41,140 nucleotides of DNA from Verrucomicrobiaceae bacterium (GTDB lineage: Bacteria; Verrucomicrobiota; Verrucomicrobiia; Verrucomicrobiales; Verrucomicrobiaceae), in the NCBI GenBank assembly GCA_027487315.1, contig JAIYDW010000087.1, forward strand, positions 1 through 41,140, read 5' to 3'. The notes beneath the pieces are model-generated. The model was not told the origin of the DNA. It saw only the letters and a program-made list of their open reading frames with translations, and ran no database searches. A program made the translations under genes and the position numbers. Of the stretch, positions 7,779-28,900 are shown one piece after another (within the stretch, counting starts at the first letter, position 1; each line of letters opens with the position of its first letter).

Positions 7779-10700
7779 ATGCGATCCACCAAACGACTTT
7801 TCATCACCTTGATCGCCCTCGCCCTACTTCCCGTCGGCTGTAGCGATCAACACCCTTCATCGACCAGCTCACCCCGCCCTGCCAGCCCCTCCTCAACCCC
7901 ACCCATCGTCCCCCTCGCAACTCAAATCACCGATGCAACAACCCCTACCGTCCAACACAGTCCCAACACACAAACCACCTCCCCGTCCATTCCACCACTG
8001 AATGCATCACCAACCCCTCCCACCCAAAACGCATCCCCTCCTCCTTCCAACGCCACCCTCCTCAACACCACCACCACACCCAATCACCAACTCACTCCAA
8101 CCATCACCGGCCATCCAACCTCCCCGCCCACCCCATCCCAACCCTCCTCCAGCCTCACCCCCATCACCCCAACCGCCACCATCGCCCAGCGCCTCTCCCA
8201 ATCCCACAACCTCACCGACCCCACCCAACGCGCTGCCCTCGTCACCGAACTGAAGTCCCTCGAACAAAAGGAACAAGCCAATCTCCATGCCAAGGCCAAA
8301 CGCCTCGGCATCCCCACTTCAGGCACCCGTCCCGATGGCACTCCCTTCCTCCTCCGCGACTTCGAAGGCGACACGCCCATCTACGAATCCCCCGAAAACA
8401 TCAACGCTGCCATCACCACTGCCGCAGATCGAGTACGTTCTACCCCCCCATTTGATGTCACGGGCGCCAACCTCACCGTCGGCATCTGGGAAAGCGGAGG
8501 AATCCCCAGAGTCTCCCACCAAGAGTTCGGAGGCCGCGTCACCGTTGTCGACGGCTCCACCACCACCTCTAGTCACGCCACCCACGTCACGGGCACCGTC
8601 GCTGCCGCGGGCATCAACCCCCAAACCTTGGGAATGGCTCCGCAAGTCACCGTCCAAGCCTACAGTTCCACCAGCGACGTCTCTGAAATGACCGCAGCCG
8701 GCGCTGCCTCCTCAAACGAACCCGGAAAAATTCAACTCTCCAACCACTCCTACGGCACCCGCCGCGGTTGGTTCGACGACGGCGTCACCTGGCTCGGCAC
8801 CTACAGTGACGATGCCGACCCCACCAACGACGTCGATTTCGGCTTCGGCCGCTACGACACCTCTGCCGTCGCCCTCGATGGTCTCACCTACAACCTCCCC
8901 TACTACCTGCCCTTCTTCTCCAATGGAAACCAGCGCAACAATGGCCCTCCAGCCACAGGTGCCACTTGGTATCAGGGCTTCGGCGGCACCACCCGCACCT
9001 ACGACCCTGCCCGCCACCCTCCCGGTAACGGCGCCTACAAGCAGCAATACGACACCATGGACGGTCGTAAAACTGCCAAAAACATCATGTCCATCGGCGC
9101 CATCAACGACGCCGTCAGCGCTGGCCAGCGCTTCCTCCCCAATGGCACCCTCACCAGCTTCTCCTCAAGCGGCCCCACCGACGACGGCCGAATCAAACCC
9201 GACCTCGTCGCCAACGGCGCCAGCCTGACCTCCACCAGCAATGCCAGCGACACCGCCACCTCCGTCTCCAGTGGCACCAGCATGTCCACACCAAATGCCA
9301 TGGGCTCAACCGCCCTCCTCCTCGACTACTACAAGCAGCGCTTCCCCGGCCAAACCATGCGCGCCAGCACCATCAAAGCCCTCCTCCTCCACACCGCGGA
9401 CGACCTCGGCACCCCCGGCCCCGACTACCTCTATGGCTGGGGCCTCATGAACACACTCTCCGCCGCCCAAGTCATCAAGTCCCACGCCGAAAGCAACAGC
9501 AACCCTTTCATCATCGAAAACCGCCTCAACTCTACCTCTCCTTCCCGCTCACACCCCTTCACCTGGAACGGCATCGACCCCATCCGCGTCACCCTCTCTT
9601 GGACCGACCCCGCCTCCACCGCCTCCACCAATCACGACGACCGCACCCCCCGCCTCGTCAACGACCTCAACCTAACCCTCACCGGTCCCGCCAGCACCAC
9701 TCACCTGCCCTTTGTGATGCCCTACGTTGGCAACTGGACCAACGCCATGCTCACCGCCCCCGCCACCACTGGTGTCAATACCGTTGACACCGCCGAACAG
9801 ATATTCCTCCCCGCCCCATCACAACCCGGTCTCTACACAGCCACCGTCAATCACACCGGCATCCTCACCGGCTCACAACAGCATTACTCCCTCATCATCA
9901 CCGGTGGCGGCATTCCTGATCTCTTGACCATTCTTCCAGCCAATGGTCTCAACAGCGAAGGCGAGGCAGGCGGACCCTTTGCTCCTAGCAGCGAAACGTA
10001 TACCCTCTCCAACTCCGACTCTGCCCCCACCGCCTGGACTGCCGCCGTCGACGCCCCCTGGGTCACCCTCTCACAACCCGGCTCCACTCTGCTGGCAGGA
10101 CAAAGCGCCACCCTCACCGCTTCCATCAACTCCAGCGCCAACTCCCTGCCCCTCGGCCTCCATACAGCCACCCTCACCCTCACCGACACCACTCGTCAAA
10201 CAACTCGCACCCGCCTGATCACCCTCAATGTCCGTACCTATCCCATTATCAGTGCCGAACACCCGGAAAACACACCCCTCCAGAACGGACTCTCCCGCAT
10301 TGACTTTGGATCCCCCTTGATAAAGACCACCTCAAAACGCCGCCTCCTGATCCGCAATTCCGGCGTTGCGAACCTCAACATCGGCGCCCGCACATTCGAA
10401 GGCCACAATGCGTCAGATTTCACCGCCTCATCCCCCACTCTCTCGATGGTCCCCCCAAATGGCACCTCCTTCATTGACATCACCTTCGCACCCTCCACTC
10501 CAGGCCCCAGCATCGCCTCCCTTTCCATCGCCAACGACGACCCCGACGCCAACCCTTTGATCATCGACCTCACCGGCAACGCACTCGACACCCACAGCGG
10601 CATCACCTTCATCGGAGACTTGAACTCCGTCACCGCCGGAGTCGCCATCAACTCCACCGCTTCCGTTCCCCTCGCCATGGACACCTATGTCCTCTTTGCC

Positions 10701-13700
10701 GGCAACTCGCCACTTGATGGCAACGAAATGTGGCGCACCGACGGCACCGTTGCTGGCACTTATCCACTCACCAATCTCACTCCCAGCACCAATACCGTCA
10801 CACCCACAAACCTTACCCGCGTCGGAAACCGCGCCTTCTTCAGTGCCAATGATGGCATAAGCGGCACCGAACTCTACGTCACCGACGGCACCATCGCCGG
10901 CACTCAACTCGTTCGCGACATCAACCCAGGACTTTCATCCTCCTCCCCTTCCAATCTCACCGTCCTGGGCTCTACACTCTACTTCACCGCCAACACCTCC
11001 CTCACGGGCACCGAACTCTGGAAAACTGACGGCACTGCTGCGGGCACCCTTCTGGTCACCGACCTTAACCCCGGCAGCCTCAACTCCTCCCCGTCTTCCC
11101 TCGTTGCCTTTCAAAACAGAATCTTCTTCGCAGCCACCACCTCCGACACTGGCACCGAACTCTACTCTTCAGACGGCACTACCGCTGGCACCTTCCTTGT
11201 GAGGGACATCAGTTCCGGCTTCGCCAGCAGCTCTCCTACCAGCCTCACCGTTGTCGGCTCTGACCTCTTTTTCGCCGCCTCGAACTCCGACACCGAACTC
11301 TGGAAAACAAACGGCACCTTTGCGGGCACCCAGATCGTCCTGGACATTGCTCCCGGCTTTAACAGCTCCTCACCCGCAGGCTTCATTGTTCTCAACAACA
11401 TTCTCTATTTTCGCGCCACCACCTCTAGCTCCGGCACCGAACTCTGGCGCTCCGACGGCACCCCCACCGGCACCTTTCTCGTCAACGACATCAATCCCGG
11501 AACCAACTCCGGCCTCACTGCCACCCCCACTGTCTACAACAACAAACTCTATTTCTCCGCCTCCAATGGTTCCTCCGGTTCCGAACTCTGGACCTCCGAC
11601 GGCACCAATCTCGGCACGACCCTCCTCTCAGACATCTACCCCGGCTCCGTAAGCTCCACCCCCACCAACTTTCGTATCGCCAACAACCAGCTCTTTTTCT
11701 CCGCCTTCACCCTTCAGGGCCGCGAACTCTGGAAGACCGACGGAACCAACGCCGGCACCGTCCTCCTTCGTGACATCAACCCCGGATCGCTGAGCTCCTC
11801 CCCAGCCCAGCTTACCAACTTCAATGGTCTACTCATCTTCGCCGCCAACGACGGCCTCATCGGCCTCGAACTCTGGCGCAGTGACGGCACCACCGCAGGC
11901 ACCATACCCATTCACGACACCATCCCCGGCACCGCTTCCTCCAGTCTGTCCTCCCTCACAAATATCAATGGCTCCCTCCACTTCGCCGCCAATACCGGCA
12001 GCATCGGCAACGAACCTTGGCGCATACCCACCACCACTACAACCCCCACCTTGATCAGAGACATCGCCACAGGCTCTTTAAGCTCAACGCCTTCCGCCTT
12101 CATCCTCGCCCCCAATAACACCCACACTCTCTTCAGTGCCAATGCAGGCACGACCACTGGCACCGAACTCTGGATCTCTGACGGCAGCAATCTCGGTACG
12201 TCACTCCTAATGGACATCAACCCTGGCTCCTCGTCCTCTTTCCCCGCCAACTTCCGCCGGATCGGTAACCAAGTCTTCTTCACCGCCACCAACTCCTTAG
12301 GCTCAGAACTCTGGACCACAGACGGCACCGCAGCAGGCACTCGCCTCGTTCGTGACATCAACCCAGGTTCGTCCTCATCAAGTCCCTCCCAACTCACCAT
12401 CTACCAAAATGTCCTCTACTTCCGCGCTTCAAACGGCACCGTCGGCACAGAACTCTGGCGGTCCGACGGCACAACCGCAGGCACGTACCTCCTCAAAGAC
12501 ATCCGTCCAGGCCCCTTCAATTCCACCCCCCTGAACTTCGCGATCCTCGATGGTCTCCTGTACTTCTCCGCCTACAGCGAAGAAGACGGCTACGAACTCT
12601 GGCGCACTGACGGCACCTCGGACGGCACCCTCCAGGTCGCATCTCTCATGCCGGGGATCAACAGTTCGTCTCCCTCCAACCTCACCCCCGTAGCATCCAC
12701 CCTCTTCTTCTCCGCCACCACCCCCTCCGGCACCGAACTCTGGAAATACGATCCCCTCTCCGCAACCGCTTCTCAGGTGGTCGATCTTGTCCCCGGTTCC
12801 GCATCCTCCAGTCCCTCCCAATTGACTGCCAACAACGGCCGCCTCCTATTCGCAGCCGACGACGGCCAAAACGGACGCGAACTCTGGGTCAGTGATGGCA
12901 CCTCAGTCGGCACCAATCTTCTCAAAGACATCTATCCAGGCTCCGACTCCTCCACCCCCGCTTCACTCACCCCCATGGGTGAAATCGTCTGTTTCACAGC
13001 AACCAACGGCACCAACGGCAGAGAAATGTGGCAGACAGACGGCACACCGGAAGGCACCATCCTCCTCGCCGATCTGAACCCCGGATTCCTCGGCTCTAAC
13101 CCCGCCGCCCTAACCCCCGTCGGCCCTCTGCTCTACTTCACCGCCACGCTACTCGGAATCGGCACGGAGCTTTTCATGGTCGAACCCATCGCCTCGAGGC
13201 CCGTCCTCCAGGTCTACGCAGGACCCTCCTCCGGCCCAGCCCTCCTGCCCAACGCCGGTCCGGTCAACTTTGGCTTCGCGCTCCTTGGACAACGGCAGAC
13301 GAGGACCTTCGCCATTCGCAACATAGGAAATTTGCCACTTTCGATCACCAACCTTGAGACCACTGGCGATTGGCAAATCGATACCCAACGGACTAATACC
13401 CAGCTAGCACCTCGAAGCCTCACGACTTTCATCGCCCACTTCTCCCCTACAGGTGCGGGAACGCGGGTCGGAAGTCTCACCATCCAAAGCAACGATCCTT
13501 TCCATCCATCCATGGTCTTGGCGTTTAACGGAACAGGTATCGACTCTGCTCCCGGCTTGCCCGTCATCGGAATTCCTCCGGCTCACCACATCGTTCGCCC
13601 TGGTGCACGAGTGAACCTCTTTACCGTCGCTGTAGGAACTCCCCCTTTAACCTACCAATGGTCCAAAAATGGACGCCCAATTTCTGGCGCCTCATCCTCT

Positions 13701-15506
13701 CTCTTCAGCATTCCGTCTGTCAGTTCGTCAACCGCCGGTCTCTATACCGTCTCGGTTTCCTCAAAACAAAAAATCACCAGCCCAGCCACCTTCCTCACGA
13801 TCGTTCCGGACATTCCAAAATCACACCTCGTCCAGGCTGGCAAATCCATCACCTTCACCTCCGGCGATTCCGGTCCCACCACCTTCCGTGTCTGGACCCT
13901 TAACGGTGCACCCCTCCCTTCCTCCCCACGCTTCTCACTCACAAAAAACGGGCAAATCCTTACCATCAAAAACCTTCAGGCGAACGATTCAGGCATCTAC
14001 CAGTGCAATGTCTCCAATCCCGCAGGCACCCTTTCGACTGGCCCTATCAGTCTAAATGTAATTGATGCTCCTCCAACTATCATTACCCCCCTCGCGATCC
14101 CGTCAGGAATCGTCGGCGCCGCTTTCGCCTATCAAGTCCCGATAAACATCAGCCCCTCGAGGCAGCCCAATCGCTTCGGCGCCAAAGGCCTCCCTCCAAG
14201 CCTCTCCATCGACCCCATCACAGGCATCATCTCCGGCTACCCCACACGCGCCGGCACCTACCAAGTGACAATTACCGCAGCCAACAGCCTTGGTTCCTTT
14301 AGCGCCTCACAAGCCGTTCAAATCGCGCCCCTTCCCATCAATATTGCAGGCTCTTACTCAGGGTTGGTTTCACGTCACCCCATCTTGAACGACAACCTCG
14401 GGGGCAGGCTTGACTTCACCATTACCGAATCAAGCTCAGTATCAGGTTCGCTAGAGCTGGGTTCGACCAAGCTGGCATTCAGAGGACGCGTCATCGTCGA
14501 TCCCAATGGCATCCTCGAACCCCGGGTGACGATCTCGATTCCCTCTCCAAACAACCCAACCTCTCTCCTCTACACCCTTGATTTCAATATCAACAGGTCA
14601 CAAGGCGTCATTGAAACTGGAGGCATCGTCAGCGACGCTTCAAGCTCTGCACTACTCGAAGGTTGGCTCAATCCCTGGAACCTCCCCACCCGTCCAGCCT
14701 CCGCCCTCGCGGCCTACTACACATTCATCCTCAAACTCTCTGCCATCGACCAAGGCAACGTCGCCATCCCACAGGGCGACAGCTTTGGCTCGTTCAAAGT
14801 CTCCCCGTCAGGCCAACTCCAAGTCACCGCTCGCCTTGCCGATGGCACCCCCTTCACTCTCTCCTCCTTCGTTGGCCCAGGGGGGCAAATCGCACTCTTT
14901 AGGACCCTCTACTCCAAACCTCTCTTGGGTTCCCTGATCGGTCGCCTCACCGTCGACCTCAGCGGCGATCCTGAGTCTGCGCTGGACAACTCTCTCTCTG
15001 GCAGGGCCGTGACATGGTCGCGCCCAGCCATCCCAGGCCTCCTTTACCCTGAGGGCTTCACCCCCCGCTCACTCGACACTTTTGGCGGCGCCTTCACTCC
15101 ACCTCCTCTGCTTCTTAACATCACCCCCGCTCCCGGTAGCGCCCTTCTCAATTTTTACCAAGCCAACATCTCACAATCAGCCACCCCTCCAAATCGAACC
15201 CTCGCCGTCGGCCTGAACAATCGCATAACCATCCTCCCTTCAGCTTCACTTGGCACCACCACCCTCAATGTCACGCCCGCCACCGGCACCTTCTCCGGCG
15301 CCTTCACCCTCATCGACCCCCACTGGCAATCCCCTCCCCCCGCCACCTGGAGACGCACCTCCACCTATCAAGGCATCACCATCAAAAACGGCCCCACCTA
15401 TTCCGGCCACGGCCACTTCCTCCTCCCCCAACTCCCCACCTCCAACCCCAAAACCTCCCCACCCCCCACCCTCTCAGGGCAGGTCCAGTTACAGACCGTA
15501 CCCTGA
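7779..15506 (+). CDS. Giant subtilisin-like lipoprotein with ELWxTDGTxxGT repeats
   Basis: 2575 residues. The N-terminus has a lipobox (LLPVGC, Cys21), then a Pro/Ser/Thr-rich tether to about residue 130. An S8-type peptidase domain follows (about 225-560): catalytic His266 in SHATHVTGT and Ser501 in GTSMSTP are clear, but the Asp position reads GIWESGG (Glu238). Next come a beta-sandwich, a BACON-like segment (about 715-815), a choice-of-anchor-D-like domain (about 825-940), 17 ELWxTDGTxxGT repeats (about 945-1800), a second anchor-D domain, two Ig-like domains (about 1928-2095), a putative-Ig (He_PIG) domain (2096-2187) and a C-terminal domain (2188-2575) homologous to the end of the 19205-27640 protein. 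It is probably a cell-surface lipoprotein that binds or cuts polymers or proteins. It is divergent from thrS with 210 bp between them; no clear promoter was identified there. Confidence 0.93.
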   Translation: MRSTKRLFITLIALALLPVGCSDQHPSSTSSPRPASPSSTPPIVPLATQITDATTPTVQHSPNTQTTSPSIPPLNASPTPPTQNASPPPSNATLLNTTTTPNHQLTPTITGHPTSPPTPSQPSSSLTPITPTATIAQRLSQSHNLTDPTQRAALVTELKSLEQKEQANLHAKAKRLGIPTSGTRPDGTPFLLRDFEGDTPIYESPENINAAITTAADRVRSTPPFDVTGANLTVGIWESGGIPRVSHQEFGGRVTVVDGSTTTSSHATHVTGTVAAAGINPQTLGMAPQVTVQAYSSTSDVSEMTAAGAASSNEPGKIQLSNHSYGTRRGWFDDGVTWLGTYSDDADPTNDVDFGFGRYDTSAVALDGLTYNLPYYLPFFSNGNQRNNGPPATGATWYQGFGGTTRTYDPARHPPGNGAYKQQYDTMDGRKTAKNIMSIGAINDAVSAGQRFLPNGTLTSFSSSGPTDDGRIKPDLVANGASLTSTSNASDTATSVSSGTSMSTPNAMGSTALLLDYYKQRFPGQTMRASTIKALLLHTADDLGTPGPDYLYGWGLMNTLSAAQVIKSHAESNSNPFIIENRLNSTSPSRSHPFTWNGIDPIRVTLSWTDPASTASTNHDDRTPRLVNDLNLTLTGPASTTHLPFVMPYVGNWTNAMLTAPATTGVNTVDTAEQIFLPAPSQPGLYTATVNHTGILTGSQQHYSLIITGGGIPDLLTILPANGLNSEGEAGGPFAPSSETYTLSNSDSAPTAWTAAVDAPWVTLSQPGSTLLAGQSATLTASINSSANSLPLGLHTATLTLTDTTRQTTRTRLITLNVRTYPIISAEHPENTPLQNGLSRIDFGSPLIKTTSKRRLLIRNSGVANLNIGARTFEGHNASDFTASSPTLSMVPPNGTSFIDITFAPSTPGPSIASLSIANDDPDANPLIIDLTGNALDTHSGITFIGDLNSVTAGVAINSTASVPLAMDTYVLFAGNSPLDGNEMWRTDGTVAGTYPLTNLTPSTNTVTPTNLTRVGNRAFFSANDGISGTELYVTDGTIAGTQLVRDINPGLSSSSPSNLTVLGSTLYFTANTSLTGTELWKTDGTAAGTLLVTDLNPGSLNSSPSSLVAFQNRIFFAATTSDTGTELYSSDGTTAGTFLVRDISSGFASSSPTSLTVVGSDLFFAASNSDTELWKTNGTFAGTQIVLDIAPGFNSSSPAGFIVLNNILYFRATTSSSGTELWRSDGTPTGTFLVNDINPGTNSGLTATPTVYNNKLYFSASNGSSGSELWTSDGTNLGTTLLSDIYPGSVSSTPTNFRIANNQLFFSAFTLQGRELWKTDGTNAGTVLLRDINPGSLSSSPAQLTNFNGLLIFAANDGLIGLELWRSDGTTAGTIPIHDTIPGTASSSLSSLTNINGSLHFAANTGSIGNEPWRIPTTTTTPTLIRDIATGSLSSTPSAFILAPNNTHTLFSANAGTTTGTELWISDGSNLGTSLLMDINPGSSSSFPANFRRIGNQVFFTATNSLGSELWTTDGTAAGTRLVRDINPGSSSSSPSQLTIYQNVLYFRASNGTVGTELWRSDGTTAGTYLLKDIRPGPFNSTPLNFAILDGLLYFSAYSEEDGYELWRTDGTSDGTLQVASLMPGINSSSPSNLTPVASTLFFSATTPSGTELWKYDPLSATASQVVDLVPGSASSSPSQLTANNGRLLFAADDGQNGRELWVSDGTSVGTNLLKDIYPGSDSSTPASLTPMGEIVCFTATNGTNGREMWQTDGTPEGTILLADLNPGFLGSNPAALTPVGPLLYFTATLLGIGTELFMVEPIASRPVLQVYAGPSSGPALLPNAGPVNFGFALLGQRQTRTFAIRNIGNLPLSITNLETTGDWQIDTQRTNTQLAPRSLTTFIAHFSPTGAGTRVGSLTIQSNDPFHPSMVLAFNGTGIDSAPGLPVIGIPPAHHIVRPGARVNLFTVAVGTPPLTYQWSKNGRPISGASSSLFSIPSVSSSTAGLYTVSVSSKQKITSPATFLTIVPDIPKSHLVQAGKSITFTSGDSGPTTFRVWTLNGAPLPSSPRFSLTKNGQILTIKNLQANDSGIYQCNVSNPAGTLSTGPISLNVIDAPPTIITPLAIPSGIVGAAFAYQVPINISPSRQPNRFGAKGLPPSLSIDPITGIISGYPTRAGTYQVTITAANSLGSFSASQAVQIAPLPINIAGSYSGLVSRHPILNDNLGGRLDFTITESSSVSGSLELGSTKLAFRGRVIVDPNGILEPRVTISIPSPNNPTSLLYTLDFNINRSQGVIETGGIVSDASSSALLEGWLNPWNLPTRPASALAAYYTFILKLSAIDQGNVAIPQGDSFGSFKVSPSGQLQVTARLADGTPFTLSSFVGPGGQIALFRTLYSKPLLGSLIGRLTVDLSGDPESALDNSLSGRAVTWSRPAIPGLLYPEGFTPRSLDTFGGAFTPPPLLLNITPAPGSALLNFYQANISQSATPPNRTLAVGLNNRITILPSASLGTTTLNVTPATGTFSGAFTLIDPHWQSPPPATWRRTSTYQGITIKNGPTYSGHGHFLLPQLPTSNPKTSPPPTLSGQVQLQTVP
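10620..13190 (+). repeat. 17 tandem ELWxTDGTxxGT coding repeats
   Basis: Within the giant lipoprotein a unit of about 48 codons recurs from residue 981 to 1795. Its core reads GxELWxTDGTxxGTxLLxDINPGSxSSxP, followed by a short strand ending LxFxA. Seventeen units are visible plus a terminal half-unit (GTELFMVEP). Units 10 and 15 are degenerate (GNEPWRIPTTT and ELWKYDPLS). The DNA is diverged between units, so the array is old or under protein-level selection. The pattern suggests beta-propeller-like blades, possibly two or three propellers in series. Confidence 0.93.
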
Positions 15507-15521
15507 CCACCTTCACCCGGA

Positions 15522-16022
15522 TCACTTCACCACCCCGTGAAACCCCGCCTTGTTCAGCGCCACAATCAAATCCCCCTCACTGAACTCCCCTTCCACCTCA
15601 AACACGCTCGCCTTCGTCTCGATCTTCGATCCCGTCACCCCCTTCACACTCGCCACCGCCTTCTCCACTGCCTTCACACACTTTCCGCAACAAAGGTGCG
15701 CCCCGCTCACGGTCGCCCCCTTCAGCACCCGCGTTAAACTCGCCTCCTTCGGCGCCTCAATGCCCTCACCCGTCCCGGAGTAACCCGCTCCCACCAAAGC
15801 CTCGAACGCCTTCTTCGCCGTAGGCGTGTTCTTCGCCGTAATCGTCACCGTCTCCCCATCCACGGCCGCCGTCGCTCCCTTCACGGATTCAATCGCCTTC
15901 GTGATGCCCTTCGCGCAACTGCCACAGCAATTGTGCACCCCGTTCACCGTGATCGTCGCATCCGCCAAAGCCGACCCGCTCAACGCCGCCACAACACTCA
16001 AAATCAAAAAAGAAGTTTTCAT
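15522..16022 (-). CDS. Exported protein with two heavy-metal-associated domains (CCxxC)
   Basis: 166 residues starting MKTSFLILSVVAALSGSALA, a Sec signal peptide with cleavage after residue 20. Two HMA-like ferredoxin-fold domains follow: the first has VHNCCGSCAKG (Cys32, Cys33, Cys36), the second AHLCCGKCVKA (Cys111, Cys112, Cys115). Normal HMA domains have GMxCxxC; here the Met position is replaced by Cys, giving CCxxC in both. The protein would bind soft metals such as Cu(I) or Hg(II) in the periplasm; as neither a P-type ATPase nor a regulator is adjacent, the metal is unknown. It converges on the giant lipoprotein gene, 15 bp away. An upstream in-frame ATG at 16043 is less likely because it precedes the signal peptide. 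Confidence 0.88.
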   Translation of the reverse strand: MKTSFLILSVVAALSGSALADATITVNGVHNCCGSCAKGITKAIESVKGATAAVDGETVTITAKNTPTAKKAFEALVGAGYSGTGEGIEAPKEASLTRVLKGATVSGAHLCCGKCVKAVEKAVASVKGVTGSKIETKASVFEVEGEFSEGDLIVALNKAGFHGVVK

Positions 16023-16074
16023 AGACCCCTCATAACGCACCACCCCCCTTCACCTTTGCTCAAAATCCCACATA

Positions 16075-17439
16075 TCACCTCACCAGCACCTCTTTCTCCT
16101 CCGCATCCATCTCCGCCTCCCAGTCCGCCAACCGCTTCTTCAAATCCGCCACCACCTCCGGATGCCTGAAATTCATGTTCGTCCGCTCCCCCGCATCCAC
16201 CTCCAAATCAAACAGCAAATCCATCGTGTTGCCATCATTCACATACTTCCACTTCCCCCTCCGAATCGCCTTCATCGTCCGGTTCGACCGCTGCATCCTC
16301 CAGCAAAAATCCCGCTCCGCCACCTTCGTCTCACCACTCACCAACGGCAGCAAATCCACCCCATCAAACGGCTTCTCCTTCGGCAGTTGCCCTCCCGCCG
16401 CCGTCAAAAAAATCGCGCTCAAATCCATCGTGATCCCCGGCACATTCGACCGACTCCCCGCCGCAATCTTCCCCGGCCACCGCATCAGACACGGCACCCG
16501 AATCCCCCCCTCCCACAGCGTCGCCTTGTGATGAAACAGCTGCGCGTTACTCGCCCAGCGTTCCCCGCCATTGTCACTAGAAAACACCACCAGCGTCTTG
16601 TCCGCCACTCCCGCCACCTCCAGCTCCTTCAAAAGCATCCCCACCCCCGCATCCACCCGCTCCAGCATCGCCTTGTAAATCCCCCGACTCCCCTTCAGCA
16701 TGGACTCCTTCGTCACCATCGGCGTCTCCGGCGCATCCGGGGCCTGAAACGGCGCATGCACCGCCAAATGCGGCACATACAAAAAGAACGGCTTCTCCCC
16801 GCCCGCATGCTTCTTCACAAAAGCCGCCGCCCGCTCATTCACCAAATCCGTGAAATACCGCCCCTTCAGATCCACCTCCTTCAGCCCATCCCGAATCCCC
16901 ACCGTCCCGTCATAATACCGGTGCCGATAGTAATCCACATGCCCCAGTAACTCCCCAAAAAACTCATCAAACCCACGCTTCACCGGATTGTACTCATCCT
17001 TGAACCCCAGGTGCCACTTCCCAAACGCCCCCGTCACATACCCCGCCTCCCGCATCCGCTCCGCCACCGTCACCTCGCCCAGCGGCAACCCCAACCCATG
17101 CATGTCCGGCTCCGGCACCCACGCCCCGTTCACCTTCTTCATCTGCTCCACCTGATACCCAAACGCAAACTCGATCCCCACCCGCTGCTGCCATCTCCCC
17201 AGCATGAACCCCGCCCGCGTCGGCGTGCACACCGGCGCATTCGAGTAAAAATCCGTCATGATGACCCCCTCCTTCGCGATCCGATCAATGTTCGGCGTCG
17301 CAATGTCCTGGCACCCCATGCACCCCAGATCCCCATACCCCAAATCATCCGCCAAAATGAACACCACATTCGGCCGCTCAACCGCAAACGCCCCCGCCGT
17401 CACCAGCATCCCAACAAAAACCCCAAGTCGCATCTTCAT
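16075..17439 (-). CDS. Exported arylsulfatase-family sulfatase
   Basis: 454 residues, S1-type alkaline-phosphatase-fold sulfatase. The N-terminus MKMRLGVFVGMLVTAGAFA is a signal peptide. Metal-binding Asp31-Asp32 sit in FILADDLGYGD, and the formylglycine signature is Cys71 in VCTPTRAGFMLGR (C-x-P-x-R). Further family blocks are GKWHLGF, LFFLYVPHLAVHAPFQ-like and VVFSSDNGGE. The enzyme hydrolyses sulfate esters, probably of polysaccharides, in the periplasm or outside. It needs a formylglycine-generating or anaerobic maturase enzyme, not found here. The family's length (450-550) is matched. It is followed 52 bp downstream by the HMA protein on the same strand and preceded by a methyltransferase gene with a 7-bp repeat tract between. 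A start at MRLGV (17433) is equally possible. Confidence 0.93.
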   Translation of the reverse strand: MKMRLGVFVGMLVTAGAFAVERPNVVFILADDLGYGDLGCMGCQDIATPNIDRIAKEGVIMTDFYSNAPVCTPTRAGFMLGRWQQRVGIEFAFGYQVEQMKKVNGAWVPEPDMHGLGLPLGEVTVAERMREAGYVTGAFGKWHLGFKDEYNPVKRGFDEFFGELLGHVDYYRHRYYDGTVGIRDGLKEVDLKGRYFTDLVNERAAAFVKKHAGGEKPFFLYVPHLAVHAPFQAPDAPETPMVTKESMLKGSRGIYKAMLERVDAGVGMLLKELEVAGVADKTLVVFSSDNGGERWASNAQLFHHKATLWEGGIRVPCLMRWPGKIAAGSRSNVPGITMDLSAIFLTAAGGQLPKEKPFDGVDLLPLVSGETKVAERDFCWRMQRSNRTMKAIRRGKWKYVNDGNTMDLLFDLEVDAGERTNMNFRHPEVVADLKKRLADWEAEMDAEEKEVLVR

Positions 17440-17479
17440 CCCCCCACCCTAATCCCCCACCAAACCTCCTGCCAAGCCC

Positions 17480-17528
17480 AATCCACAATCCGCAATCCGC
17501 ATTCCGCAGTCCGCAATCCCCAATCCGC
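17480..17528. repeat. Seven tandem copies of a 7-bp unit (AATCCGC)
   Basis: The tract reads AATCCAC, AATCCGC, AATCCGC, ATTCCGC, AGTCCGC, AATCCCC, AATCCGC with no gaps: 49 bases, each unit at most one base from AATCCGC. It lies four bases beyond the methyltransferase stop codon and about 40 bases upstream of the sulfatase start. It could vary in copy number by slippage and alter spacing of the sulfatase 5' region. Confidence 0.85.
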
Positions 17529-17532
17529 CCCC

Positions 17533-18555
17533 TCACTTCACCCCCGTCATAAACCCCCGCCCCACCAACGTCTCCACATACCCCCCCGGCGTGAACCCCG
17601 CCTCCGCCATCAGCTCCGCATATTCCCCCACACTGTAGCACTTCCCCTGCGTCGAGTGCATCAGCAGACACGAATACTCCGCCACATGCACCGGCCCATC
17701 CTTCGCCTCATTGATGAACGCATCATGAATGATGAGCAGCCCACCCGCCGGCAGCGCCGCATACGACACCCGCAACAACTCCCGCACCTCCTTCACACCC
17801 CAGTCGTGCAGCACATTGGAAAACAAATGCACATCACAGTCTCCGGGTAACCCATCAAACATGTTCCCCACCGCCACTTCCACCCGATCCGCCACCCCGC
17901 GCTCCTCGATCAACTTCCGCGCGATCCGATCCACCGGCGCCTGATCCAGCACCACACACCGCACCCCCTCATGCCGCGCCGCAATCCCGCACGCATAAAT
18001 CCCCGACCCCGCCCCGATATCCAGCACCCGCTTCCTCCCGCCCAAATCCAGCTTCGCAGCCAAACCCTGCGCCAGATAAATCCCGCGACAATCCATCGCC
18101 GCCGTAAACTTCCGCGCAAACCCCTCCTCCTCCATCGCCTTGTGCCAGTCAAACGACGCCTTGTCTCCCGACCACCCCGCCGGCTTGTCAGACTTTAGCA
18201 CCTCCAGAAAATCCCGCGCAATCGGCCGCTCATGCAGCGACGCATAATACGGCCCCAAATGCCACACCGACCCCGCGCACAAATGCTCCTTCGCCACCTC
18301 CGTCACCTCCAGCACAGCGCCATTGCGCCGCACCCAGCCATTCGCCACAAACAGCGTCACCATGACATCCACCGGCCGCTCAGCGAATCCAAAATACTCC
18401 CCCACCTCCGCCAACGTTGAAGGATGCGCCTCCAGCCAGGAAAAGAAATCCAACTTCAACGCCGCCGTAATCAAATCCACCGCATACAAACCATCCCGGT
18501 ATCGGTAAATCGAAATCGGATCCGTAGCAGGCGCGCGCGTCAGTTCAAAACTCAT
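17533..18555 (-). CDS. SAM-dependent O-methyltransferase-like protein
   Basis: 340 residues from MSFELTRAPA (18553-18555); four extra residues upstream are possible. The N-terminal ~90 residues resemble the winged-helix dimerisation domain of COMT-type methyltransferases (SWLEAHPSTLAEVGEYFG). The SAM-binding motif I is VLDIGAGSG (residues 177-185), followed by an acidic strand end (VVLDQAP), LFSNVLHDW and GGLLIIHDAF, all typical of the O-methyltransferase/hydroxyneurosporene methyltransferase group. It is cytoplasmic and methylates an unknown small molecule. No biosynthetic cluster is visible around it. It is leftward, 93 bp upstream of the sulfatase gene; the 7-bp repeats lie in this gap. 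Confidence 0.87.
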   Translation of the reverse strand: MSFELTRAPATDPISIYRYRDGLYAVDLITAALKLDFFSWLEAHPSTLAEVGEYFGFAERPVDVMVTLFVANGWVRRNGAVLEVTEVAKEHLCAGSVWHLGPYYASLHERPIARDFLEVLKSDKPAGWSGDKASFDWHKAMEEEGFARKFTAAMDCRGIYLAQGLAAKLDLGGRKRVLDIGAGSGIYACGIAARHEGVRCVVLDQAPVDRIARKLIEERGVADRVEVAVGNMFDGLPGDCDVHLFSNVLHDWGVKEVRELLRVSYAALPAGGLLIIHDAFINEAKDGPVHVAEYSCLLMHSTQGKCYSVGEYAELMAEAGFTPGGYVETLVGRGFMTGVK

Positions 18556-18608
18556 CGACCACCACACCCCGCGATCCCTCCCCTGTCAAGCCCCCCAAAA
18601 CCCCCACT

Positions 18609-18980
18609 CTACCCCTTCCGCTCCAGCCAAAGCACATGCGCCCCCGGATTCTGCTTATCCGGCGCCAACCGTCCCCCCACCTTCACCGCCAGCGACCGCA
18701 GCAACGGCACCGCATGGGACCGAATCACCCCCTGCCCACTCCCCGCCCCATACCCGTGAATGATCTTCACCCCCTTGTGCCCCCCCATCACCCCCCGATC
18801 CACCGCACGCAAAATCTTCTCCCGCGCCACCTCCCACGTCTCCCCCGCGTGCGCCACATCCACCTCCAGCACCCCCTGCAAAGCCCTCCCCCTCAGCCCC
18901 TCCCCACACTTCGGACACACCCCCATCCTCCCCGGATCCACCGGAAACTCACACGTCGGGCAGCAAACATCCTTCCTCAT
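18609..18980 (-). CDS. Small zinc-ribbon plus Smr-domain protein
   Basis: 123 residues from MRKDVCCPTC (18978-18980). The N-terminus has a zinc-ribbon pattern, CPTC then CPKC separated by about 12 residues. The C-terminal two thirds is an Smr (MutS2-type) domain: LEVDVAHAGETWEVAREKIL corresponds to the LDLHG helix region, and VKIIHGYGAGSGQGVIR to the nucleic-acid-binding IIHGxGxG loop. Smr domains nick or bind DNA or RNA and, in bacteria, act in recombination or ribosome rescue. The canonical LDLHG is changed to VDVAHAG, so the DLH motif linked to endonuclease activity is altered. A longer reading frame extends upstream to 19784, but crosses the giant gene and low-complexity repeats and is rejected. 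The gene lies 53 bp upstream of the methyltransferase. Confidence 0.83.
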   Translation of the reverse strand: MRKDVCCPTCEFPVDPGRMGVCPKCGEGLRGRALQGVLEVDVAHAGETWEVAREKILRAVDRGVMGGHKGVKIIHGYGAGSGQGVIRSHAVPLLRSLAVKVGGRLAPDKQNPGAHVLWLERKG

Positions 18981-19032
18981 CACTCCCAAACCTCGCATAC
19001 CTCCCCACCCAAAGCGAGCCCTTCTCATGCAA

Positions 19033-19112
19033 GTTACCCCCTCCCCCCGTCGAGCAACCGGCTCGGTTGCCCCCTCCCCCCATCGCGCAACCGCCCCGGT
19101 CGCCACCCCCTC
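19033..19112. repeat. 33-bp imperfect tandem repeat (about 2.4 copies)
   Basis: Unit 1 (19033-19065) and unit 2 (19066-19098) both follow GTTnCCCCCTCCCCCC then a CAACCG-rich end; a third partial unit runs to 19112. Unit 1's end joined to unit 2's start can form a hairpin, GCAACC with GGTTGC. The repeat lies in the 224-bp gap between the giant gene's stop and the Smr gene's start, so it sits just upstream of the Smr gene. Confidence 0.7.
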
Positions 19113-19146
19113 AACATTCGTGCCCATTTGCGCCATTCGTGGCTCC

Positions 19147-19182
19147 AAACAAAACGCCCCCTGAACTTTCGTCCAGAGGGCG
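19147..19182 (-). terminator. Rho-independent terminator of the giant exported protein gene
   Basis: Read leftward, CGCCCTCTGGAC (19182-19171) pairs with GTTCAGGGGGCG (19166-19155) through 12 base pairs, two of them G-U, closing a GAAA tetraloop, and is followed by TTTTGTTT (19154-19147). It begins 22 bases after the stop codon. It is the best-formed leftward terminator in the window. Confidence 0.85.
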
Positions 19183-19204
19183 CCAAAACCTTCCTCCCCT
19201 TGCT

Positions 19205-22200
19205 CTACGGCACCACCGGCGCCACCACCTTCACCTCCACCCGCCCGCCTTCCTGTGGCGAGTTGCTCGTCGTCTGCGCCGGAACCGCACCCACCGCCGG
19301 CAACTGATTCAAGATGAAGTACCCATGCCCCACTCCCCCGACCAAGAGCCCCTGGAACGTCACCGTCCGCGTTACAGGCACCAGCAAAGGCGGCACCGCC
19401 GCCGCTAGCACCGGATTGTTCTCCCTCAAGGTCGCTTTCCCCGTAAAACTTCCTTTCGAGGCAACGAACGTCAGGCTCATCGCCCGTGTGTTCACCAGCT
19501 TGTCCAAATTGAACGCCACCTTGTTGGTCAAAGCCACATTCGCTTTCACGTCCGCCTGCAAAGGCAGCGCCGTCTCCACCCCGGCCTTTGTCAGCAACAC
19601 CTCGATCTGATTCGCCAAATCCGTCAGCCCCATCACCCGCGGTTCCGCCAGCGGATTCGTCCTCGTCCGTGCCGGAGGCGCCACATACCGCCCCCCGGTC
19701 AGCGTCACATCCAGCAAGCCAGGCGCCGGGAACCCACTCCGATACAACCGGTTCGAAGTCGCCGTGTTCGCCGGACGCGTCCACGTCATCGGCCCGGCCA
19801 CCGTGTTGTTCAGCGGATTCGCTTCCGCCGCAATCCCCAGCGCACCCAGCAACGACCCCCGCGTCGTCGTCCCATACAAAGTCCGGAACATCAGCATCTG
19901 CCCCGCTGGACCCGCAAACGTCGCCATCGTAATGACACTCCCGTCACTCAGCCTGCCCGACAGCGTCAAAAGACCCGTCGTCGGTGCCACCGTGAAGGAC
20001 AAATAACCCGCCCCCAACGGCGCCTGCGCACTCGTTAATGCCGTGTTCACCAGATCGATCTTTGTCGTATAATAACCCGCCAGCGCCGTTGCTGGATTCA
20101 ACTTGCTCCATGGATTCCGCCAGCCCGTGAACGTCACCGTCGCCGTCCCGTCACTGATCGTCGACGTGTTCAGAATCGTCCCCGTCAGCGTGTCCACCAG
20201 CAAACTCACCGTCAGGTTCCGTGTCGTCGATAGCTTGATCGTCGCTGCCACCGACAACCGATTCGCAGGCGACGCCGGAATCACCGCCTTCGCTTTGGAG
20301 AACGAATACACCTTCGTTCCAATCGTCACCTTGCCACTCGCAATACCCGTCGAAGCCACCGTCATGTCAAATCGCCCACCCAAAGCACCATTACCCCCGG
20401 TCACGATGCCCTCCAAAAGCGCACTCCGCCCAATCGGCCCCGCAAACACCCCCAACGCCCCGGTCGGCAACGGATTGATCAAAATCCGCGTCCTCAAGAC
20501 CGCCGACCCAAACGCATTCCTCGCCGTCACACTCACCGCATACGGCGTCGACTTGATCGCCGCCGGCGTCCCCGTGATCTCACCCGTCGTCGGATTGATC
20601 ACCAATCCCGTCGGTTGCCCCGTCATGCTGAAACTCGTCGCCGAACGGAAAACCGGCGGCACCGCTCCCGGCAAATCCGCCTTCACATTCAAATCAAACG
20701 CATACGGCACCCCAATCTGCCCCGCTGGCAGATCCGGCAAAAGATCCCACTCCGGCTTCGACGTCGCCGGGCCCGAAGTTGGCAAACTCAAAACCGCCAC
20801 CGCACTCGTTGTGGATCCACTTCCGTTCGTCACGATCACTCGATAATTCCCAAACGTCGTCGTCCCGGCGACCACTTGCAGCGTCGATCCAATCTCTCCT
20901 GAAATCGGACTCTCGTTCCTCTCCCACACATACGAAAACGGACCAGGTCCTGCTACCGTCACCGAAAAGGTCACCGTCGTTCCAGCCGAAACGCTCGCAC
21001 TTTGCGGCGGCACCGTAATGACCGGGAACCCGCCCACCACCAGCAAAGCCCCATCACTGGTCGCACTCCCAGCCGTGTTCGAAACCACCACGGAATACTC
21101 TGCCGCCTGGGCCTGCGCCACATTCGTGAAGCTCAATGAGCTTTCATTCGCCGCGCCAAAGGGCTGCCCGTTTCGCCGCCACACATAATTAAGCGGTCCA
21201 GTGCCCGCAGCAACCACGCTGAACGTCACATTATCTCCCACCGCCGCGTCTTTCGATTGTGGCCCAACCACAATCGTCGGCGCCCCGTTTGCCCGTGCAA
21301 TCACCAGCGCCCCTGTCGTCGCAAAGAAACTCGTGTCCCAAGACAACCCTCCCGATAACACCGGCAAGTCGAACACCACCCCGGTGAAATCCGCCGTCAT
21401 GTCATTCGCCCACCCCAGCACCTTAAACACATCTCCCGCCGCAGGCACATAATCGGATACCAATTTCACACTCACCGTCCCCGCAAAAGTCACCGTTCCA
21501 CCGCCCGCCGTCGGACTCGCCAACTCCAACGCGTCAAACTCGGTGCCGCGCGCCTTCCCACCAATGTCAATCTTCAACACCGAGCCACTCTCTGCGATAA
21601 GGCCGCTGTAAGCCGTCACCAAACGAGTCGTCCCATCCGTTCCCAACACCAGCTCAGTGCCTGCACCCAGGTCCAATCCGGTCGCCCCCACCACACCCCC
21701 ATTGCCCAAGGCCTCCGTATTCAGCACCAAACTCACCGTTCCACGCACCTTCACAGGTTTGTTCAACCCCGCTTTGGTTCCCGCAAACGTCACCGCTCCG
21801 CTGCCTTCCAATCGCAGCGCATCGATGGACGCTGCGGCACCAGCCACCACAATGTCCCCGCCAAACGTCACCGCGCCCGTCGTCCGCAACACAATATCCC
21901 CAAGCGTTCCCGCTCCAGCAAACAAGGCCGACTCCCCGGCAATCTCAATCGCGCCTGCAGACGCCGTCAGCACCGCCTCACTGCCCTCACGTCCCCCGAT
22001 CGAAAACCCGACCGGTATCGCATCCACCCCCGTCATCGCGGCTGTCGCTTTCAATTCGCCATAGTTGAAAAACCCTTGCGTGATCCCCAGCGCGTCTTTG
22101 CTGCCAAACTCAATCACCCCGCCGTTCGTCGCCGGCAACCCTTGCAGACCCAGCGCTACCTTGTTCAAGTCCGGATTCGCCGTTGGCAGCACCAGCGTAC

Positions 22201-25200
22201 CCGCCCCCGTTTTGATGAACCTGTTGGTTCCACCCCCACCCAGCTTCACTCCACCATTCAACCGAACCGTCGCCCCCGTTTCGACAAAAAGCGTCGGGGT
22301 CGACGCCACAAAATCCACCACGTTCCCCACCAGCGTGGATCCCGTCGTGTGCAGCGCGCTGAACCCGGTCAGATCCAACTCATTGCCGGTGATCTCAGTC
22401 GCCTGCGCCACTTTGAGCGGCCCCAACTGCAACGTGCTTCCCGTGAAACCCACGCCACCTCCGCCCGTCAGCGTCAACCCCGTCGGCATCGTAACACTCC
22501 CAGCCACCGTCAAAATCGTTCCCGTCGTCGGACTGAGCGTCCCCTCCCCAGTGATCGCTCTTGTCGCAGGCAAGGTCAGTGTCGCCGTGGTCGCCAAGGT
22601 CCCGCTCAAACTGATCCCGTTGCTCACTGCTCCCAACGCGGTATCCGCCCCAATCTCGATGCTTCCCGCTCCGATCGAGACCGGACCCGTAAAGGTATTG
22701 ACCCCCGTCAAAGACAACGTCCCGGCACCCAGCTTGCGCAGCCCTGCAGCACCTTGAATCTCCGAACCAATCACCGACTTGCCAGCCACCACCCTCACCC
22801 GCGGCGACGTCCCGGTCAGCTCAATCACTCCCCCGGACAGTGTCACCTGTCCCTCCTCAATCGTAAGCGCCCGAGTGCTCTGCGTTCCAGACACCGTCAC
22901 CGTGTAATCCCCAATCGCATCCGAACCCGCCGCAAACGTCGCTCCCTCACCCGAAATCCAACCCGCAGTCAATGCGTCTCCCAAAGCGGACGCCCCCCAA
23001 TACGAATCCGTTCCCCACGCCCCTGTCGGCGTCGGTCCTCCCGCTCCAGCCACCGCTCCATCCGCATCCCAGAACAACCCGGGATTGATCGGTTGGTAGG
23101 TCATCGAAAAATCATCAATCCCAAACGTGTCCCGGCTCCCGCCTCCAGTCGAACCCGAAAGCGCCACCACCCGGAACCAAGCCTGCGCCTTGTCCTCAAT
23201 CGAACTCAAGTCAGACTCCGTCAACGTCACCGTCGTCGCACCAAACACCCCTGGGTCCGTGAACACCGCCACCGTCTCCCACGCCGCTGGCTCCGCCCCA
23301 CTGCCCACCTGCAAACTCCACGTTGTCGACCGCGTCTGCACACTCAACATCTGCAAACTCAAACTCAATCCCGTCAGGGTCTTGCCCGTAGTGCTGAACG
23401 TGAACGCAAACGCCGCTCCCGGATCCCCAAAGGCCCCTGTTTGCCGGATCGCCGGTGCCCGGTTCGTGCTCGCCAACTGCGCAGCTGCATTCGATGTGGA
23501 AATCAGCCCTGTCGCCGCAGCCGAATTCCGAAACGCTCCCGCCGATGTCACCCACTCGACCGCCGTGGCTCCAAACGTCCCCAAACCGCCCACCGCTGTT
23601 GCCGTCGCCCCCGTCCTCACCGACCACCCCGCTGGCAATCCCGCCGCAATCCCGTCAAAATTCTGCGCATACGTCGTGCCCGGCGGCAACTCAAACGGAT
23701 CATTCGGTGACTGCACATTCAGCAGCACCGCCGCGCTCGTCGCCGTGTTCCCCACCCCCGGCCCCGTCACCACCACCCGGTAACTCCCCTCATTCACCTC
23801 CTGCGCATCCGTGATCGTCAGCGTCGCACTGTCAGGCGCCCCCAAACTCACGCTACCCTTCTGCCAGTCATAACTCAATGGCCCATCCCCCGCCGCCACC
23901 ACCGTGAAGGTCGCCGTCGCCCCCGCCACCACCGACTGTGCCACCGGCGGTGTCGTGATGCTCACCGGCACCCGCGTCGTAAAGCTGAACACTTTGTCCG
24001 CATCCATCCCCGCATCCACCGCATCCTTCACCTTCGTCTTGTCCACCGTCACCGTATACTGCGTCCCCGCCGCCAAGGGCGCTGTCGGCGTCAGCACAAA
24101 ACTCGTCGCCAACCCAGGCCCGCCAAAGTCCGGCACCATCGTGAACGGCACCACAGGACTGATGCTCACCGCCCCCGCCTCCAACTGCACCGCCTTGCTA
24201 AAATTCAAAGTGATCGTGCTGTCCACCGCCACCCCCGTCGCCGCCGCCGCAGGCACCGTGCTCGTCACCACCGGGAAATCCGTGTACGTCACCACCGCAT
24301 CATTGCTGTCCGCAAACTGTGCCCCCGGATTCGTCGCCCGCACAAAATACGACACCACCCCCACCGTCGGCCGCTGAACCACCAACGTCGATTCCGTCTT
24401 CCCCGTCAAAAGCGTCGCCCCAGCAAAGTTCGCCGACGTCCCCTCATACCACTGCAACGTCACCGGTGCCGTTCCCGCCGTCACATTCGCCGTCAACGTC
24501 ACATCCGTGCTGATCGGTGACGTCACCGCCGTTGGTGTCACATTCACCACCGGCGCCACCAAAGCCTCCGTCATGAACCGCACCGGAATCGTCGCCGTCG
24601 TCGCCCCCAGCGGAGCCGCCGTCGCCGAAGTGATCTCAGCCGCCACCAACGTCGCCGTAATCGTTTTCCCGTAAGGCAGCGGACTGCTCGGCGTCAACGT
24701 CACCGACGCCGCCGCCGTCGTCACCGGCAATCCCGTGAACGGAATGACATTGCTGTCCTGATCCACCATTGTCACCGCCGTCGCCGACAACAAAGCCGGA
24801 GCCGAAAAATTCAAAACCACCCCACTGCTCACTGGCACGTTCGTCGCCAAATGCGCTGGTGTACTCCCCGTGAATTGGAACGGCGGGTTCCCCGTCACCC
24901 GCACATTGTCAAACCGCCAAGTCCCGCCAGTTCCGTAGCTGCTCGCAGGTGCTGCGGCAACGTACCCCGTGCCCAGCGGATCAAAGGCTGCCAAGATTCG
25001 AACTCCAAAATTCGGGTTGTTGGCTACCCCGGGAGTGCTTGAAAAATCCAACACGTTGTTATTCGTCCAAACGCTCCCAACCGTCGTCAAAGTCTGCACC
25101 GGCCCGAAATCCAACCATGTCGTCCCATCGGTTGTGTATTGAATCTGTGCGTGTCTAGGAGCCGTGTTGCTATGGCGAATGTCATAAACAACCTGCACGC

Positions 25201-27640: not shown

Positions 27641-27898
27641 AACAGGTTGGGTCAGACAGGCTTGAGTTAGCATTGTTCACGCCACTTTGAGATTTCAGAA
27701 AAAAAATTACGCTCCCGGGTAGATTCCACAGCTCAATAGAAGCGCTCCATCCCCCATCAAATAAGGATCGCACGCCCTAATCACCACCCTCCCCATGCCC
27801 CGAAATTCGCTCTCCCACAAACCCAACACAGTGTCGTTTCAGTCACATGAATTATGACTAATTCAATCAACATCAAAATCACATAGTCCTAACATCGC
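27641..27898. other. Upstream region of the giant exported protein gene
   Basis: No credible gene. It contains the sigma-54-like site at 27669-27685 and, further out, AT-rich sequence with a short dyad AGTCA (27841-27845) and TGACT (27855-27859) separated by nine bases, which could be an operator for the leftward gene. The part next to 27899 abuts the inverted-repeat element. Confidence 0.4.
27669..27685 (-). promoter_or_regulatory. Weak sigma-54-like promoter candidate for the giant protein gene
   Basis: Read leftward, GTGGCGTGAACAATGCT has GG and GC exactly 10 bases apart, as in -24/-12 promoters, and retains TGGC and TGC of TGGCACG-N4-TTGCW but differs at three other positions. The predicted start would give an approximately 18-base leader. 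The match is weak alone; it is listed because a closer match sits at the same distance upstream of the pseudopilin operon. Confidence 0.3.
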
Positions 27899-28152: not shown

Positions 28153-28896
28153 TCATCGATCCTCTAACACCACCGCACTGCCACCCGCCGCAAACTCCAC
28201 CGCCTTCAACTTCCCCTCAGGATCCTGAAAAAACACCACCCATCTCGCCCGTGGCTCTTCCATGTTCAAAACCAACAACTCCCTCTTTTCACCCTCCCCT
28301 TTTGGAGCCTCCAGACTCGCATCCGCATCAAAGGTCCCCTCATCTTTCACACTGATGAATCCTCCCTCAGTCTCGGTCGTCACCTCGACCGGCTTCAACC
28401 GCCTGAGTGTGCAAACCTCGGTCCCAATCTTCACTGAAATGTCCCGCGTCAAAGTCGCATTGATCGCCACCACTCGCCGCTCCCCACCATTCGCCTGATT
28501 CCCCTTCGCCGCTTCTTCCTTGCAGTCCACCAGCAGCACACCCGCCGCCAACCGCTCCGGCCGCCCGGGTCGACTCGGCTCCGCCAACTCCGGATGCAAC
28601 AAAATCGCCTTCAAATCCCCGGCCTCCAACTTCAATGGCAGTTCCACCTTCCCCCACGGTTGATGCTCCGCCTCAAGCTTGACCGCTCCCTCCGGAAAAT
28701 GCACCCACCCCGTCACCGCCCCCTCGGCAAACCCCGCAGGATTCGCATCCTCTCCATTAATCACCAAAAAAGCCCTCCCCTTCTCTCCAAGTGCGTTCAC
28801 AAACAACACCCCAGGCTCACTCGTCTCCGCTCCCCGCAAAACCGGCACACTCAGCAAAGCCAGCGCAAAACCCAAACCATGAATTCGTGCATTCAT
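28153..28896 (-). CDS. Exported protein of unknown function, paralog of the next gene upstream
   Basis: 247 residues from MNARIHGLGFALALLSVPVL (28894-28896), with a signal peptide cleaved near RGAE. The N-terminal half (VLFVNALGEKGRAFLVINGEDANPAGFAEG followed by VTGWVHF) aligns with the adjacent protein (LRFVNATGLPGKLFVKLDGEDINPEGYADG), sharing GED-x-NP-x-G-x-A-x-G and the strands after it. The fold appears to be all-beta. The C-terminal part has a strand RWVVFFQDPEGKLKAVEF, matching GHVLFFFTDQKGVLRNVWF of the paralog. It begins four bases after the upstream paralog ends, so it is the last gene of the pseudopilin operon. The family is not recognised; an assembly, periplasmic or surface role is inferred from context only. 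Confidence 0.82.
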   Translation of the reverse strand: MNARIHGLGFALALLSVPVLRGAETSEPGVLFVNALGEKGRAFLVINGEDANPAGFAEGAVTGWVHFPEGAVKLEAEHQPWGKVELPLKLEAGDLKAILLHPELAEPSRPGRPERLAAGVLLVDCKEEAAKGNQANGGERRVVAINATLTRDISVKIGTEVCTLRRLKPVEVTTETEGGFISVKDEGTFDADASLEAPKGEGEKRELLVLNMEEPRARWVVFFQDPEGKLKAVEFAAGGSAVVLEDR

Positions 28897-28900
28897 AGCC

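Follow-up and report, generated by a model that had tools for sequence, protein, structure and literature searches.

Two giant exported proteins encoded in the window, the whole stretch of 41,140 nucleotides of Verrucomicrobiaceae DNA analyzed here, end in a common C-terminal domain of ~385 residues. We consider this tail a putative, lineage-specific surface-sorting or anchoring domain of Verrucomicrobiota and give this assignment an even chance of being correct. We infer this function because the position, occurrence, and exchange of the tail resemble those of a sorting signal and because Slam and autotransporter barrels are absent. Giant surface proteins are numerous in Verrucomicrobiota, and little work has addressed how they cross the outer membrane and are retained there. 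If the assignment is true, dozens of proteins annotated as "hypothetical, Ig domain-containing" would become a defined surface proteome, and a folded 8-stranded-barrel tail would be documented outside the Slam system as well. The many-or-none distribution of the tail in one family offers a handle for finding the export machine by comparative genomics.

The two genes, designated gene A and gene B, converge. Their main features are as follows.

7779..15506, plus strand: gene A, encoding an exported protein of 2575 amino acids
13539..14297, plus strand: Ig-Ig-He_PIG-like stalk of gene A, from blastp against the gene B stalk and from Ig matches
14349-15503, plus strand: domain A, from the genome search
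19205..27673, minus strand: gene B, encoding an exported protein of 2822 amino acids
19229-20392, minus strand: domain B, from the genome search
20504..21301, minus strand: Ig-Ig-He_PIG-like stalk of gene B, from blastp against the gene A stalk

The product of gene A contains a borderline signal resembling a lipobox (LLPVGC), a Peptidase_S8 domain, HYDIN/choice-of-anchor-D, ELWxxDGT repeats (17 in all), Ig domains, and the C-terminal domain. That of gene B contains a Sec signal, YDG, Big_5, Ig, PATR repeats, and the C-terminal domain; a preliminary description of this DNA gave no strand for gene B, which occupies the minus strand. The domains (14259-15503, plus strand, versus 19208-20482, minus strand) align with 33% identity and 50% positives over 280 amino acids (E=4e-36). 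The sequence motifs listed in the preliminary description are present, and its claim that both giants have a large C-terminal domain in common is borne out. The same description held the remainder of both proteins to be unrelated. This is correct for the parts further upstream, a subtilase with ELWxxDGT repeats in gene A and a YDG/Big_5/PATR protein in gene B, but not for the stalks, the ~250 residues upstream of the domain, which are homologous (30% over 276 amino acids, E=8e-19, blastp). The block common to both proteins is ~650 amino acids long and comprises the stalk (two Ig domains and one He_PIG-like domain) together with the C-terminal domain. He_PIG and Ig-like domains had been placed before the C-terminal domain; Ig matches were recovered, whereas He_PIG falls below threshold in genes A and B; in many of the other copies it is called directly upstream of the domain.

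Searching the genome to which the window belongs (5.87 Mb, 256 contigs, 98.7% complete) revealed 35 matches to the domain in about 33 genes, which places its alignability beyond chance. The domain closes the protein in 25 of the 26 copies with a readable end, usually with 0-17 residues left over, and copies share the closing motif G-x-GYFLLPQLP ... LSGxVxL. The exception is L025, where an FGE-sulfatase domain comes after the tail. Another domain follows the tail in L059, a copy from a relative, and in L011 the domain is split by delta-60 repeats, while the protein still finishes with the last strands of the domain. The extreme C-terminus is thus not strictly required for the tail. Bodies preceding the tail are varied and include subtilase, ELWxxDGT, FGE-sulfatase, kelch, NHL, FG-GAP, delta-60, lamin-tail, cyclophilin, and glucose/sorbosone dehydrogenase types; one shows a weak matrixin match. 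Most copies have Ig or He_PIG between body and tail, and inspection by eye shows a signal peptide at the start of most intact copies. The tail is more highly conserved than the body on which it sits (59% versus 34%). This supports the earlier designation of the domain as "mobile" in the sense of domain shuffling only.

The tail does not correspond to a named domain in the collections searched. Scanning of 21 copies yielded no convincing match in Pfam, where just five unrelated single matches appeared up to E 0.1, or in NCBIfam, and a profile search of PDB sequences with the domain matched none. An already named domain would have refuted the preliminary description, and none turned up. An alignment of the 21 copies contains seven invariant residues, all proline, glycine, or tyrosine (P171, G173, G185, Y263, G343, G385, and G407), and nearly invariant glycine, leucine, tryptophan, arginine, and phenylalanine residues. 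No acidic, histidine, cysteine, or serine position is invariant in this alignment, which argues against the tail being an enzyme.

Profile searching of genomes and structure prediction had been proposed as checks at the outset. Besides the 35 matches in its own genome, the profile detected the domain in at least 35 of 388 genomes of the phylum, a lower bound since only 4 candidates per genome were scored. Genomes of the same family carry either many copies or none: five contain 35, 23, 31, 28, and 54 matches, and two others contain 0. The tail-bearing genomes are designated G000, G188, G191, G200, and G235, and those lacking the tail G066 and G218. This spread fits the pattern of sorting or tag systems. 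The five related loci found with a 4-row alignment are all in GTDB genomes named as Verrucomicrobiaceae or Prosthecobacter MAGs. A literature search for a C-terminal sorting domain of Verrucomicrobia returned nothing relevant beyond PEP-CTERM.

An AlphaFold2 model of the tail, built with an alignment from its own genome, is all beta (pLDDT 86, pTM 0.84). Two predicted strands of the preceding He_PIG-like domain are followed by 24 strands in three sets of eight (units 1, 2, and 3; model residues 31-137, 152-278, and 291-413, respectively). Residues 146-415 modelled alone gave a pLDDT of 91. The predicted units are located in the window as follows.

14322..14687, plus strand: domain A unit 1, predicted 8-stranded barrel resembling fHbp, TbpB, and haemophores (AlphaFold2, VIA-align)
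14694..15101, plus strand: domain A unit 2, predicted second 8-stranded barrel (AlphaFold2, VIA-align)
15102..15503, plus strand: domain A unit 3, eight further predicted strands ending in GHGHFLLPQLP...LSGQVQL (strand count in the models)
20102..20479, minus strand: domain B unit 1, predicted barrel 1 (alignment to the modelled copy)
19208..20095, minus strand: domain B units 2 and 3, predicted (alignment to the modelled copy)

VIA-align superimposed unit 1 on the C-barrel of fHbp (4ayn_B) with a Z score of 10.5 and an rmsd of 3.0 over 103 residues. Further matches of unit 1 were HphA (Z 8.9), the Haemophilus haemophore (8.6), and TbpB (8.1); quinohaemoprotein amine dehydrogenase (9.8) and the cyclic-dinucleotide receptor Cap15 (9.3) fall in the same range. 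Unit 2 matched designed barrels, streptavidins, the TbpB C-lobe, HpuA, and fHbp with Z scores of 7.0-8.9, near the level of common arrangements. Foldseek returned no match at E<=0.001 for either model (the whole tail or residues 146-415), so that VIA-align and strand counts are the basis of the fold assignment. In our reading, the tail consists of three consecutive soluble 8-stranded barrels, a prediction that structural matches support for units 1 and 2 and that follows from strand count for unit 3. Comparison of the three units by hhalign did not support an internal sequence repeat: probabilities were 0.4-16%, sequence similarity was not significant, and a short TG-fSG motif was all that they had in common.

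The best functional evidence for the tail is its exchange with PEP-CTERM on homologous bodies. The genome contains exosortases and PEP-CTERM proteins, and its PATR giants are found with different endings. Those on contigs C46, C148, and C210 end in PEP-CTERM; gene B (C93), C69, and C104 continuing on C38 end in the triple-barrel tail; and C143, C195, C7, and C112 carry a third, unnamed tail. The join of C104 and C38 rests on an identical overlap of ~39 residues at the contig ends. Giants adjoining Verru_Chthon A genes show the same alternation. The triple-barrel tail occurs at G188:C3, G191:C2, G191:C9 (two genes), G200:C5, G200:C3 (two genes), and C47 of the window's own genome (two genes), and PEP-CTERM occurs at G188:C1, G191:C4, three G218 loci, and one G066 locus. 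Bodies are homologous across the two tails in C104 and G188:C1 (31% over 745 amino acids, E=1e-44), G188:C1 and G188:C3 (38% over 382 amino acids, E=8e-41), and G191:C4 and G191:C2 (37% over 331 amino acids, E=4e-38). Judged from sequence, this amounts to exchange with another sorting signal on homologous bodies, a hallmark of sorting domains. The tail also displays the general features of a C-terminal sorting domain: it is terminal, it follows many unrelated exported bodies, and it occurs many times or not at all per genome. The suggestion of a sorting, anchoring, or assembly domain thus gains partial support from the terminal copies, the many-or-none spread, and the alternation with PEP-CTERM; the function itself remains putative.

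The main rival to sorting is a generic ligand-binding or adhesion module that recognizes exopolysaccharide or a host or particle glycan and holds the proteins in a matrix or on substrates without any role in export. Eight-stranded barrels of the calycin, streptavidin, and TbpB type are often binding folds, the bodies are of matrix/adhesive and degradative types, and non-terminal copies occur. A common ligand would also account for the terminal position and the diverse bodies. We nevertheless judge this explanation possible but rather unlikely: the tail is nearly always the last domain, the invariant residues are mainly glycine, proline, and aromatic with no obvious binding-site signature, and binding is a poorer explanation for why the tail and PEP-CTERM, which is a processing signal, alternate on homologous bodies. 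The same alternation with a sorting signal weighs against the idea that the tail is a structural cap, serving solely to protect the C-terminus or to assist folding of the giants. Such a role would suit a terminal, all-beta domain that lacks catalytic residues, but a domain of 385 residues would be costly for a cap when some genomes carry dozens of copies and close relatives with comparable giants have none, and we find this improbable.

Two explanations draw on known outer-membrane systems. C-terminal barrels of eight strands are known to be read by Slam (PMC5449769, PMC12282271), and T11SS cargo consists of a variable body and an 8-stranded C-terminal barrel (PMC12282271), which provides a precedent. 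The tail could be a T11SS cargo barrel read by a Slam/DUF560 outer-membrane channel, since units 1 and 2 have the predicted 8-stranded fold of fHbp, TbpB, HphA, and HpuA and the proteins have the corresponding architecture of variable body plus C-terminal barrel. The fold matched, yet Slam (PF04575) was absent from the window's own genome, G191, G200, and G235 in a search whose control, G208, gave E=3.8e-52. Across the 388 genomes, 27 Slam matches and 35 tail genomes had 3 in common versus 2.4 expected. The tail copies had no match to PF01298. Moreover, cargo such as fHbp, TbpB, and HphA (TbpBBD, lipoprotein C) resembles the tail-bearing proteins in having a variable N-terminal part followed by a soluble 8-stranded C-terminal barrel, but the tail has three units rather than one or two and no sequence match to TbpBBD or lipoprotein C. 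Verrucomicrobiota are not among the phyla reported to have T11SS in the literature searched. The Slam explanation is therefore largely refuted and highly improbable. The prospect that the tail is an integral outer-membrane barrel, an autotransporter-like translocator, appears slighter still. PATR passengers are common on autotransporters, and unit 2 matched OmpA with a Z score of 7.6. On the other hand, PF03797 gave 0 matches in the genome, with positive controls in E. coli and Caulobacter, so an autotransporter (T5SS) barrel was rejected. None of the 21 tails matched an autotransporter barrel in Pfam; the models show short strands in three separate 8-stranded units; and the listed copies from this genome all lack the terminal aromatic residue that characterizes BAM substrates. 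The preliminary description had likewise set aside an autotransporter barrel, LPXTG, and PEP-CTERM. The exclusion of PEP-CTERM agrees with the absence of PF07589 from tail-bearing proteins, the same model finding other proteins in this genome.

Sorting or anchoring by the tail would proceed as follows. The passenger would cross the inner membrane by Sec, as the signal peptides of most intact copies suggest. The barrels would fold in the periplasm before export, and the folded tail would serve as a common handle that is recognized as a tag. An outer-membrane export route may recognize the tail, the tail may keep the protein on the outer surface, or both. The variable body (protease, propeller, beta-helix, or other enzyme) would then project outward on the Ig/He_PIG stalk, the tail taking the role that PEP-CTERM and exosortase have for sister proteins.

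PEP-CTERM resembles the tail in being C-terminal, present in dozens or none per genome, and attached to diverse exported bodies; it differs in being a ~24-residue motif with a TM helix and an Arg-rich end, whereas the tail is a ~385-residue fold without TM helix or Arg cluster. The C-terminal domain of T9SS cargo (Por secretion tail) is likewise a folded beta domain that targets diverse cargo. That domain is Ig-like and has ~80 residues. T9SS models TIGR04183 and PF18962 had no match at the C-terminus; one sub-threshold match lies in the Ig region of gene A rather than in the tail. A precedent is MYXO-CTERM, a tag at the C-terminus of proteins that reach the surface through the T2SS (PMC11980579). 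Like the tail, MYXO-CTERM is phylum-wide and occurs in dozens per genome, and its carriers are displayed on the surface via the T2SS; unlike the tail, which is a folded domain, it consists of a short Cys-TM-Arg stretch and undergoes cleavage and lipidation. The 21 copies have no conserved Cys, no MYXO-CTERM- or GlyGly-CTERM-like end, and no NCBIfam match to either.

A type II-like pseudopilus is perhaps the most probable exporter; we favor it because Verru_Chthon cassettes (TIGR02596, 02598-02600) adjoin giants with either tail. These pseudopilin cassettes are candidate machinery and are not homologous to the tail. The genome encodes at least 6 secretins, which together with the cassette neighbors makes a T2SS-like pseudopilus the first suspect. 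It is tempting to speculate that Verrucomicrobiota have an undescribed outer-membrane export route for which the triple-barrel tail serves as the address, and that Verru_Chthon cassettes supply this route with a type II-like pseudopilus dedicated to giant surface proteins and accepting either the tail or PEP-CTERM; we consider this fuller proposal unlikely.

In relatives, the gene adjoining Verru_Chthon A often encodes a giant exported protein. Tail and cassette are adjacent at 8 of 16 loci versus 1.6 expected in a uniform simulation (reached in 4 of 20,000 runs, or in 11 of 20,000 without C104/C38), and because the eight cassettes represent about three ortholog groups the simulation overstates the significance. 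The association is obligate in neither direction. Cassettes adjoin a minority of tail copies; many cassettes occur in G066 and G218, which lack the tail, and the tail occurs in G085, G140, and G317, which gave no cassette match. A literature search found no mention of the name Verru_Chthon. Upstream of gene B itself, at a distance of 0.5 kb, is a cluster of pseudopilin-like genes on the same strand (D, B, C, and A-like), all of which score below curated cut-offs.

34603..35499, minus strand: pseudopilin-like gene, Verru_Chthon D / GspH-like (28.5 bits, below cut-off)
34130..34834, minus strand: pseudopilin-like gene, Verru_Chthon B-like (22.2 bits, below cut-off)
33154..34152, minus strand: pseudopilin-like gene, Verru_Chthon C-like (35 bits, below cut-off)
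29556..33149, minus strand: large pseudopilin-like gene, Verru_Chthon A / GspK-like at its N-terminus only (24 bits over residues 12-70, cut-off 332)
28153..29572, minus strand: a pair of small exported proteins, encoded between the cassette and gene B and unmatched in NCBIfam

The product of 29556..33149 had no blast match to other Verru_Chthon A proteins. True Verru_Chthon A genes are present in this genome on C243, C104, and C47, and scores above cut-off were obtained for Verru_Chthon B, C, and D at C104 and for C and D at G188:C3. The gene at 34603..35499 opens the same-strand cluster that leads to gene B.

The triple-barrel tail, a C-terminal domain of about 385 residues, ends in proline in approximately 14 of the 23 copies found in the window's own genome, even though the domains are only about 30% identical. 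This terminal proline is less common in distant relatives. Two proteins of 2530 and 1858 amino acids, encoded at loci L037 (C38:10000-24000) and L035 (C109), respectively, match the tail weakly and in part at several places along their lengths; these matches perhaps represent repeated barrel units.

The tail also occurs together with an FGE-sulfatase domain, which lies N-terminal to it in one of two proteins (L041:12354-15230 and L031:2794-8538) and C-terminal to it in the other. The window itself contains a sulfatase-like gene:
16075-17439, minus strand, sulfatase-like gene

PATR giants on contigs C143, C195, C7, and C112 of the window's own genome (L108, L110, L111, and L112) carry a third terminal module at their C-termini. 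Its motif reads W-R-x-FG ... D-x-D-x-DG-x-NLxEYAxGTxP ... VxYxVExSxxLxxW ... RRFxRLKV.

Two members of the family, G066 and G218, each contain about 19-23 matches to the pseudopilin cassette gene Verru_Chthon A, far above other family members, and neither contains the triple-barrel tail. Elsewhere in the phylum, one genome encodes a strong match to the T11SS channel Slam/DUF560 (G208:C32:119683-120534; E=3.8e-52); the T11SS literature cited here is confined to Proteobacteria.

One further reading frame overlaps tail-bearing gene B:
18609-19784, minus strand, ORF weakly matching the C-terminal (Smr) region of MutS2
The N-terminal part of this ORF overlaps gene B over a long stretch, probably as an artefact of start-codon choice.
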